From Tardiphaga robiniae (lineage in GTDB: Bacteria > Pseudomonadota > Alphaproteobacteria > Rhizobiales > Xanthobacteraceae), in assembly GCF_013359755.1 (NCBI RefSeq), contig NZ_JABMCJ010000083.1, forward strand, positions 248,001 through 312,000: DNA of 64,000 bases, read 5' to 3'. Position 1 is the first letter of the stretch, and the number at the start of each line of letters is the position of its first letter. Shown one piece after another: positions 39,246 through 40,790 of this stretch. The translations under genes and the position numbers were made by a program. The notes below the pieces were generated by a model. The model ran no database searches, was not told where the DNA came from, and worked only from the letters and a program-made list of their open reading frames with translations.

Positions 39246-40457
39246 TTACCGGGCTTCAGCCCCAAGCGCGCCCGACCGAGCTCTCGCCTGCAGCCGGGAC
39301 ACCGCCTCGGCCAAAGGAACGTCGGCCTGTGAGCCGTCGCGCTCGCGCAGGCTCACCCGGCCGTCCCTCATCTCGCGCCCGCCGACGATCGCCATCACCG
39401 GCACCGCCATGTCGTGCGCTGCCACGATGCGCCGTGAAAGCGTATCGGCGCCGTCATAGGCAATGGCCCTAATCCCTGCATCCTCGAACGCCGCCACGAC
39501 GTCAGCGCCGTATCCGGCCTGGTCTTTCGAAATCGGCGCAACGGCGACCTGATCCGGCGACAACCAGAAAGGAAGCACGCCGCCGTGGTGCTCGAGCAGG
39601 ATCGCGATCATGCGGCCAAGCGATCCGAAGATGGCATGGTGGATCATCAGGGGCCTCGCGCGGCTGCCGTCGGCCGCGATGTAGGACGCGTCGAGCCGCT
39701 GCGGGAGAACGCTGTCGAGCTGCACCGTGCCGCACTGCCAGGATCGTCCCAGCCGGTCGCGCAACGCGAATTCCAGCTTCGGTCCGTAGAACGCGCCTTC
39801 GCCAGGATTGATGTGAGGCGCGAGGCCGCATTGCCGCGCGGCATCGCCGAGCTTCGCCTCCGACCAATCCCACGTCGCGTCGTCGCCAGCGCGCACCGGT
39901 GGCCGCGTCGACAGCGCCACTTCGTAGTCGGGAAAGCCGAGGTCGCGATACACCTCGCCCAGCAAAGCGATGAAGCGCGCGACTTCGTCCTCCACGTCCT
40001 GCTCGCGGCAGAACACATGCGCGTCGTCCTGCTCGAAGGCGCGCGTTCGCATGATGCCGTGGAGCGCACCGGATGGCTCGTTGCGGTGACAAGCGCCAAA
40101 CTCGGCATAGCGGATTGGAAGCTCTCGCCACGAGCGCAGACCCTTGTTGAAGATCTGCACGTGGCAAGGGCACGACATCGGCTTCAGCGCCATCGCCAAT
40201 TCGCCGTCATCGACCCGGAACATGTGCTCGCGGAATTTGTCCCAGTGGCCGCTGCGGCTCCAGAAGTCCTTTGGCAGCAGCTGTGGCGTTTGGACCTCGA
40301 CATAGCCGGCTCTGCGCATCTTGCGCCGGAGATAGTCCTCCAGCACGCGGTAGATCGCATAGCCGCGCGGATGCCAGAACACCATGCCCGGCGCATCGTC
40401 CTGCAGGTGCCAGAGTTTGAGTTGTACGCCGAGATTTCTGTGGTCGAGATCGTCCAT
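39246..40457 (-). CDS. thrS: short threonyl-tRNA synthetase lacking TGS and editing domains, 403 aa
   Basis: A class II synthetase that charges tRNA-Thr. It begins at the catalytic domain (HRNLGVQLKLWHLQDDAPGM), so the N-terminal TGS and proofreading domains of normal ThrRS (about 640 aa) are absent. The zinc/threonine ligands remain: Cys in MSCPCHVQIF, His in QDDAHVFC and His in MIHHAIFGS. Motif 3 is SLGRMIAILLEH and the anticodon-binding domain is complete (VAVAPISKDQAGYGADVVAA, VPVMAIVGGREM). TAAGGA precedes the ATG. The 5' leader holds a Thr-codon attenuator. It is presumably a second ThrRS. Confidence 0.92.
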   Translation of the reverse strand: MDDLDHRNLGVQLKLWHLQDDAPGMVFWHPRGYAIYRVLEDYLRRKMRRAGYVEVQTPQLLPKDFWSRSGHWDKFREHMFRVDDGELAMALKPMSCPCHVQIFNKGLRSWRELPIRYAEFGACHRNEPSGALHGIMRTRAFEQDDAHVFCREQDVEDEVARFIALLGEVYRDLGFPDYEVALSTRPPVRAGDDATWDWSEAKLGDAARQCGLAPHINPGEGAFYGPKLEFALRDRLGRSWQCGTVQLDSVLPQRLDASYIAADGSRARPLMIHHAIFGSLGRMIAILLEHHGGVLPFWLSPDQVAVAPISKDQAGYGADVVAAFEDAGIRAIAYDGADTLSRRIVAAHDMAVPVMAIVGGREMRDGRVSLRERDGSQADVPLAEAVSRLQARARSGALGAEAR

Positions 40458-40500
40458 GGCTGTGTTCCTTACGAGGGGAAAAAGCGCGGACGGGGATCAT

Positions 40501-40542
40501 CAAAAACAGAAAAGGCCCCGTCCGTCGCCGGCGGGGCCTTTT
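40501..40542 (-). terminator. attenuator terminator upstream of thrS
   Basis: Perfect 11-base arms AAAAGGCCCCG (RNA 5' arm, plus 40532-40542 complement) and CGGGGCCTTTT (plus 40510-40520 complement) with an 11-base loop are followed on the minus strand by the U-rich run TTTTCTGTTTTT. It lies between the Thr-rich leader peptide and the thrS ribosome-binding site, so it can only serve to stop transcription before thrS. Confidence 0.85.
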
Positions 40543-40563
40543 CTGGGTGAAGTACGCTTGTCT

Positions 40564-40641
40564 CTAGCGCGCGCGACCAGAAGGCGATCCGCCGTGAGCG
40601 GTCGCCGTGGTGGTCAATGCAGCTGATCGAAGCTTGTTCAT
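40564..40641 (-). CDS. threonine-rich leader peptide controlling thrS, 25 aa
   Basis: ATG 40641 to TAG 40564 encodes a 25-residue peptide containing ALTTTATAHGG: four threonine codons (ACC, ACC, ACG, ACC) at positions 10, 11, 12 and 14. It is followed 21 bases later by the terminator hairpin. GGCGACC at codons 12-14 can pair with GGATCGCC at codons 18-20. GCCTTCTGG at codons 19-22 can instead pair with CCAGAAAAGGC, which contains the 5' arm of the terminator. This is the layout of ribosome-mediated attenuation by uncharged tRNA-Thr. Confidence 0.75.
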   Translation of the reverse strand: MNKLRSAALTTTATAHGGSPSGRAR

Positions 40642-40647
40642 GCGCTG

Positions 40648-40676
40648 TATATGGCGGCAAAACGCGCAGGCGTCAA
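40648..40676 (-). promoter_or_regulatory. promoter of the leader peptide and thrS
   Basis: TTGACG (40671-40676) and CATATA (40648-40653) are separated by exactly 17 bases on the minus strand. The A of the leader ATG is 7 bases past the -10, the usual start-site distance, so the leader mRNA may be leaderless. Confidence 0.7.
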
Positions 40677-40790
40677 CGAAAGCTGCTTGGCGTCGCGGCA
40701 TCGATGATGCGCCTATGAGCGCCGCCACGACCTGGCCGTCGTCAAGCTCGCATCCATCCTCATCTGGCTGCGCGCTATCGACTCCGCAGC

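Follow-up and report, generated by a model that had tools for sequence, protein, structure and literature searches.

A putative ribosome-mediated threonine attenuator upstream of a short, editing-less threonyl-tRNA synthetase gene in Tardiphaga robiniae and other bacteria

Introduction

The genome of Tardiphaga robiniae encodes a single full-length threonyl-tRNA synthetase (ThrRS; G000:C57) together with a short one, and the locus of the short gene raises the question of what controls it. The gene lies in the 64,000-nucleotide stretch of DNA analysed here, which we call the window (contig NZ_JABMCJ010000083.1, positions 248,001 to 312,000). An initial annotation proposed that a leader peptide rich in Thr codons and a terminator form an attenuator in front of it. 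Comparison of this locus with its counterparts in other genomes suggests that the short gene, here named thrS2, is very probably controlled by a ribosome-mediated transcription attenuator that senses the charging of Thr-tRNA, and that the product is an auxiliary ThrRS lacking the editing domain.

Results

The short ThrRS

The thrS2 gene (39246..40457, minus strand), identified by profile searches and alignment, is preceded by the Shine-Dalgarno sequence AAGGA (40466..40470, minus strand) and codes for a protein of 403 residues. Its domains are PF00587 and PF03129 alone, corresponding to the catalytic core and the anticodon-binding domain, and a domain search found neither an editing (tRNA_SAD) nor a TGS domain. 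The protein passes the curated cut-off of TIGR00418 (445.9 bits against 383.65), and with the full-length enzyme elsewhere in the genome the description of a second, editing-less ThrRS holds. Class II motif 2 and the residues that we take to be the zinc ligands are intact in all 16 aligned short proteins, so the enzyme looks active. Most rows of this alignment (window 39249-40457) carry MSCP(C/A/G)H at the position where housekeeping bacterial ThrRSs usually have MNCPGH, a difference that may bear on the choice of amino acid. The tRNA_SAD domain occurs twice in the genome, once in the full-length ThrRS and once in a 935-codon frame that, going by its size, is presumably AlaRS; because both copies sit in long frames, no free-standing editing domain of this family is seen in the genome.

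Leader peptide and promoter

Upstream of thrS2 and on the same strand is a leader peptide gene of 25 codons and a stop (minus strand, from the ATG at 40641 to the last base of the stop at 40564), with the sequence MNKLRSAALTTTATAHGGSPSGRAR and no Shine-Dalgarno sequence. Direct reading confirms the Thr codons first noted at positions 10, 11, 12 and 14 (40600..40614, minus strand), which would act as the sensor and also lie within arm 1 of a hairpin between segments 1 and 2. Taken for this one leader, and with an assumed 5.3% Thr, the enrichment has a binomial probability of 0.0028. A -35 box, TTGACG (40671..40676, minus strand), starts 35 nt ahead of the leader ATG, and a weak putative -10 box, CATATA (40648..40653, minus strand), follows it after 17 nt. 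The initial annotation of a strong promoter is thus overstated: the TTGACG box is good and its position is conserved, but the -10 box is weak and a consensus scan finds no promoter scoring 9/12.

The distance between promoter and start codon is a conserved feature of the related loci described below. Of 41 distinct leaders, 38 have a TTGAC box 35-39 nt upstream of their ATG (L009, L011 and L164 do not), and just one has a Shine-Dalgarno-like tetramer within the 20 nt immediately ahead of it. Given the usual sigma-70 spacing, a TTGAC so placed directs initiation to the leader ATG or near it, and in the window the start site is predicted at the A of the leader or within about 2 nt of it. Since the distance is nearly fixed and the tetramer is found in one leader, the leader mRNA is probably leaderless. 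There are precedents among related bacteria: the available portions of published reports describe a Sinorhizobium meliloti trpL RNA that starts at the leader AUG (PMC7298713; PMC10117765) and 320 start sites located 0 to 10 nt before start codons in Bradyrhizobium japonicum (PMC4842269).

RNA pairings

The pairing segments that had been proposed are present at the codons assigned to them, and folding and covariation indicate how they would be used. Segment 2 (GGCGGATCGCCTTCTGGTC; 40575..40593, minus strand) can pair with segment 1 or with segment 3, and segment 3 (CCAGAAAAGGCCCCGCC; 40530..40546, minus strand) can pair with segment 2 to form an antiterminator or with segment 4 to form an intrinsic terminator. 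The terminator hairpin (3:4; 40507..40545, minus strand) has a stem that folding gives as 17 bp, with a GCGA loop and one bulged A at 40521, in place of the 11 bp originally counted. It is followed by a U tract (40506-40502, minus strand) and ends 49 nt upstream of thrS2. Its core motif, with two free positions, occurs once in the 6.3 Mb genome. A simple terminator scan misses the hairpin as a minus-strand terminator and reports, within it, a terminator on the plus strand. The leader region as a whole folds at -80.6 kcal/mol, compared with -62.6 +/- 4.4 for shuffled sequences (z -4.07; 0/200 as low), and the 1:2 hairpin appears in single-sequence folds.

The antiterminator was first read as GCCTTCTGG:CCAGAAAAGGC, a pairing that is present but forms part of a larger helix, in which GGCGG(G) also pairs with CCGCC in the 5' arm of the terminator. 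The 2:3 helix in the window joins GGCGG with CCGCC and GCCUU-CUGG with CCAG-AA-AAGGC. When leaders are folded with the 3' arm of the terminator removed, the long 2:3 helix forms in 18 of 19; the sole exception is L013, in which the cut fell before segment 3. An Rfam search returns no family at the gathering threshold, and a match to the RF00506 Thr_leader below its cut-off of 55 (22.7 bits on the right strand) was set aside because the wrong strand scores higher, at 24.9 bits.

Conservation among relatives

Short ThrRSs were found by protein search without use of the leader, and the leaders were then read upstream. The collections searched were named genomes, the family, class and phylum of T. 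robiniae, and the family of genome G774, whose members we call Burkholderia relatives: the L155 leader is identical to that of L039 (Burkholderia sp. BCC0506), and in the protein tree the family is interspersed with named Burkholderia and Paraburkholderia. A leader and terminator of this kind stand upstream of thrS2 at all 43 loci read, which represent 41 distinct leaders, there being two identical pairs. These counts leave out three loci cut by contig ends (L026, L092 and L114), other matches on cut contigs, and L002, L116, L146 and L147, which repeat L085, L085, L088 and L089 respectively. The named hosts include Bradyrhizobium, an Azospirillaceae MAG, Inquilinus, Acidocella, Burkholderia, Paraburkholderia and Citreicoccus (Myxococcota).

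The short ThrRS is rare. It is present in 5 of 198 genomes of the same family (matches of at least 92% identity), at least 7 of 289 in the class, 8 of 398 in the phylum (of nine that passed the E-value, one, in G304, proved to be full-length) and 16 of the 249 Burkholderia relatives, to which can be added a G989 copy apparently split between contigs. A plasmid search gave 86 records, and the related ThrRS is below 60% identity in all 86.

The 12 codons before segment 2 include between three and nine Thr codons in all 41 leaders, and at least four in 39 of them; conservation of these codons and of the pairing in close relatives was the refuting test attached to the original proposal, and both are found. 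ACC and ACG together account for 235 of the 252 leader Thr codons. The clade to which the window belongs is poorer in Thr codons than most, with three or four, and 13 of 17 clusters have five to nine. We note that L120 has just three, which are scattered, and that L161 (G1013:C2) has an extra G in the G run of its leader, shifting the frame past the Thr codons.

Covariation

Comparison of the loci establishes that segments 2 and 3 covary. In the 41-row alignment 80.1% of antiterminator cells are paired, and 9 of 14 pairs have changed on both sides, a number reached by 3 of 500 shuffles. The covariation score is 0.226, compared with 0.106 +/- 0.013 for shuffled alignments (0/500) and at most 0.162 for slid versions of the helix. 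The inner helix of six pairs is 92.3% paired over the 41 rows, and the outer helix, with 70.9% of its cells paired, has changes on both sides in all eight of its pairs. In a swap test with 17 clusters, cognate 2:3 extensions out-pair those exchanged between clusters, a result equalled by 107 of 20000 permutations; the 1:2 hairpin coevolves weakly (1094/20000).

The signal is smaller for the terminator, which is 93.0% paired and scores 0.136 against 0.079 when shuffled (0/500), and still 0.128 when slid by +1. Its core is nearly invariant, with 3 of 13 pairs changed on both sides, a number that 300 of 500 shuffles reach. An RNAalifold consensus from the same alignment consists of the terminator and a short local helix without the antiterminator, the two pairings being mutually exclusive. 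Together, the leaders of the relatives and the covariation of the antiterminator support the attenuator logic first proposed for the window.

A possible second layer downstream of the terminator

A further element, segment 5 (CCCCGTCCGCGC; 40484..40495, minus strand), is complementary to the 3' arm of the terminator and may have a role of its own, as suggested by a duplex energy of -25.6 kcal/mol compared with -15.0 +/- 2.3 for shuffled sequences (0/200). In 27 of 41 loci no more than 10 of 200 shuffles equal the complementarity between the arm and a downstream element; in the other 14 more shuffles do so, the arm of L120 having been wrongly set in this comparison. A related element, CUCCGU, masks the ribosome-binding site by pairing in the Burkholderia relatives; the mean unpaired value of the site is 0.04 and 0.01 in their two main clusters, compared with 0.27 and 0.34 for shuffled sequences. 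Over 39 loci (L008 and L120 lack a scorable Shine-Dalgarno), the site is hidden in 12, with no more than 3 of 60 shuffles giving so low a value, and a freed terminator arm opens it in only 10 and closes it in one. The site is not hidden in the eight loci of the window's clade (0.49 unpaired, 0.41 shuffled), and the swap test between arm and element is weak (1747/20000). A two-level switch is thus possible elsewhere and is unsupported for the window.

Evolution of thrS2 and its leader

A tree of 52 proteins was built with 28 of the 43 short loci as input, of which L029 was lost to a motif filter, and the remaining 27 short ThrRSs form a single group (100/100) apart from the full-length enzymes. 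Alphaproteobacterial and betaproteobacterial sequences are intermixed within it, and transfer between the two classes is therefore suggested. The housekeeping thrS genes of 10 genomes have no such leader (best match 10.4 bits, partial). A thrS2-type Thr leader scoring 101.5 bits does precede a second full-length thrS in genome G851 (L228/L215; G851:C2:853225-855339), the product of which has editing and TGS domains and groups with the housekeeping ThrRSs of its family.

A more varied picture is obtained with a covariance model of the leader, which at E-values up to 0.01 finds matches in 98 of 289 genomes of the class and 142 of 249 Burkholderia relatives, many of them weak and covering the terminator part alone. 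At 10 of 33 such loci that were re-read, the downstream gene carries the motif A(I/V)VGATGAVG, and the two checked (L177 and L184) are aspartate-semialdehyde dehydrogenases (asd). These ten asd-like loci (L172, L173, L176, L177, L181, L182, L184, L188, L189 and L192) are all alphaproteobacterial; their leaders repeatedly contain Thr, Lys and Met codons, and 8 of the 10 have TTGAC or TTTAC 35-39 nt before the ATG. Nine loci in Burkholderia relatives (L216-L224) have short leaders with at least five Thr codons before small hydrolase-like genes, of which the one checked, L216, gives NCBIfam hydrolase matches below the cut-off.

Two loci of the same 249 genomes, L208 and L209 (G1025:C25 and G867:C2), have, ahead of an MFS gene, a leader of the thrS2 type together with sequence that looks like the start of the thrS2 coding region. 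The best NCBIfam match of the L209 protein is the efflux pump MdtH, at 59.5 bits far below the cut-off of 469. A third copy, L207 in G973, is decayed, with its coding part largely gone. Because related leaders precede asd-like, hydrolase-like and MFS genes, the thrS2 leader can be placed in a wider set of attenuators, and it seems to have been captured by other genes.

Discussion

The arrangement suggests how thrS2 would be controlled. Transcription would start at or beside the leader ATG, and the leader would probably be translated as a leaderless mRNA. With plentiful Thr-tRNA, the ribosome would pass the Thr codons and reach the stop, where it would mask segment 2 over its 3' half; the terminator would then form from segments 3 and 4. 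When Thr-tRNA is short, the ribosome would stall at codons 10-14 and cover segment 1, leaving segment 2 (GGCGGATCGCCTTCTGG) free to pair with segment 3 (CCAGAAAAGGCCCCGCC); the terminator would be blocked and thrS2 transcribed. As to why a cell would want thrS2 when threonine is short, the simplest reading, we infer, is that it would be a general backup for times when the housekeeping ThrRS or threonine fails.

Several other explanations of the locus can be considered. One is that thrS2 is a zinc-deficiency paralogue governed by Zur and that the leader is incidental. Using what we take to be the Zur box, a scan of the window found no Zur-like palindrome near 40457-40720, its 17 loose matches all lying elsewhere, and the lack of a box at the promoter rules against Zur control; moreover, the feature conserved upstream of thrS2 is the Thr leader. 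According to the portions of the literature available, ThrRS paralogues belong to known or predicted Zur regulons in Anabaena and in some beta- and gammaproteobacteria (PMC2770081, PMC4787780, PMC6103462), and the retention of zinc ligands in 16 of 16 short proteins counts against Zur control as well, though Zur-regulated ThrRSs retain them too (PMC2770081). On balance we regard zinc control as very improbable. Equally hard to credit is the view that the leader acts mainly in trans as a small RNA or peptide, in the manner of rnTrpL and peTrpL, with control of thrS2 secondary. S. meliloti rnTrpL is indeed described, in the text available, as a leaderless attenuator RNA with trans functions (PMC7298713), but here the leader precedes thrS2 at 43 of 43 loci, and the antiterminator, which serves control in cis, covaries.

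A different possibility accepts the attenuator and assigns it to self-defence, an inhibitor-tolerant thrS2 being induced when an antibiotic blocks the housekeeping ThrRS, in the manner of the auxiliary TrpRS of Streptomyces. A Thr sensor would register such inhibition, the distribution of thrS2 is sporadic, and the MFS genes with a thrS2-type leader, present in 2 of 249 Burkholderia relatives (G867 and G1025; the G973 copy is decayed), include the one with the distant resemblance to MdtH. The inhibitor-tolerant ThrRS ObaO, as described in the part of the report available, is marked by Gly463 to Ser, shown to give tolerance, and Leu489 to Met (PMC11252418), but in the short ThrRSs these positions are unchanged, FYGPK being present in all 16 proteins and Leu in 15, with Met in the other (L013), and resistance of the ObaO type is rejected. 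The retained zinc ligands and equivalents of Gly463 and Leu489 thus point to neither zinc loss nor tolerance of the ObaO type. A ThrRS inhibitor may be countered by other means, and we consider self-defence as the purpose of the attenuator rather unlikely.

The preferred reading, an attenuator sensing Thr-tRNA charging and serving a backup ThrRS, can be extended in a way that would join the observations on spread and capture, and this extension we hold to be unlikely. The leader would be a mobile device that reports ThrRS failure and moves from gene to gene: a single thrS2 clade would have reached Alphaproteobacteria, Burkholderia relatives and also a myxobacterium, after which its leader would have been acquired by a gene of efflux type and by a full-length second thrS distinct from thrS2. 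Control might perhaps act at two levels, in that formation of the antiterminator would free the 3' arm of the terminator to pair with the CUCCGU/CCCCGUCCG element, which would otherwise hide the ribosome-binding site in Burkholderia relatives. A ThrRS without editing whose synthesis is confined to threonine shortage could also purposely raise serine misincorporation.

The mechanism itself, as read from the sequence, is ordinary ribosome-mediated attenuation, and what is new is the target gene, its wide distribution among bacterial groups and the fact that other genes have captured the leader. The novelty seen in the initial annotation accordingly stands for the target and not for the logic, for which attenuation of an auxiliary Streptomyces TrpRS is a precedent; the geometry around the start codon, the fuller antiterminator, the distribution and the capture go beyond that annotation. 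Among the titles and abstracts of the literature searched, we did not find a leader-peptide attenuator before thrS, and the available text of a survey of premature terminators does not contain the word thrS and mentions ThrRS once, as the self-regulating Escherichia coli enzyme (PMC2965389). Proteobacterial thrS paralogues thereby gain a form of control not named in the titles and abstracts searched, and the role of an editing-free ThrRS becomes testable by asking when it is made. A leader-peptide sensor appears to have been reused by genes of quite different kinds, and further attenuators of this sort in Alphaproteobacteria and Burkholderia relatives can be sought simply by their leaderless geometry.

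Closest to this system is the auxiliary, antibiotic-resistant TrpRS of Streptomyces, which Vecchione and Sello are said to have placed under ribosome-mediated attenuation in 2010. Like it, thrS2 codes for a spare aminoacyl-tRNA synthetase that is very probably under this form of control, but the amino acid, the enzyme and the phylum differ, and whereas the Streptomyces TrpRS is antibiotic-resistant, thrS2 lacks the ObaO resistance residues. The leader of the enterobacterial threonine operon (RF00506) has Thr codons in its leader peptide and terminator/antiterminator logic, and controls biosynthesis; the thrS2 leader is alike in codons and logic and differs in its target, which is thrS and not biosynthesis. 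The thrS and thrZ genes of Bacillus subtilis are reportedly controlled by transcriptional antitermination, described by Putzer in 1992, and their control is that of the T-box, a tRNA-binding riboswitch. A second ThrRS under its own control is thus found in B. subtilis (thrZ), in Anabaena (T2) and here, but the regulator is a tRNA-binding riboswitch in the first, a zinc repressor in the second and very probably a leader peptide in the third. The Anabaena enzyme (thrS2/T2), as far as the available text describes it, is under Zur, impaired in editing and about full length, with two bands near 75 kDa (PMC4787780), whereas the thrS2 product described here is short (403 residues). S. meliloti trpLE(G), from the portions of the reports available (PMC7298713, PMC10117765), is likewise a ribosome-dependent attenuator whose RNA begins at the leader AUG, as that of thrS2 probably does. 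It has Trp codons, a biosynthetic gene as its target and demonstrated roles in trans, whereas the leader described here has Thr codons and precedes thrS2.
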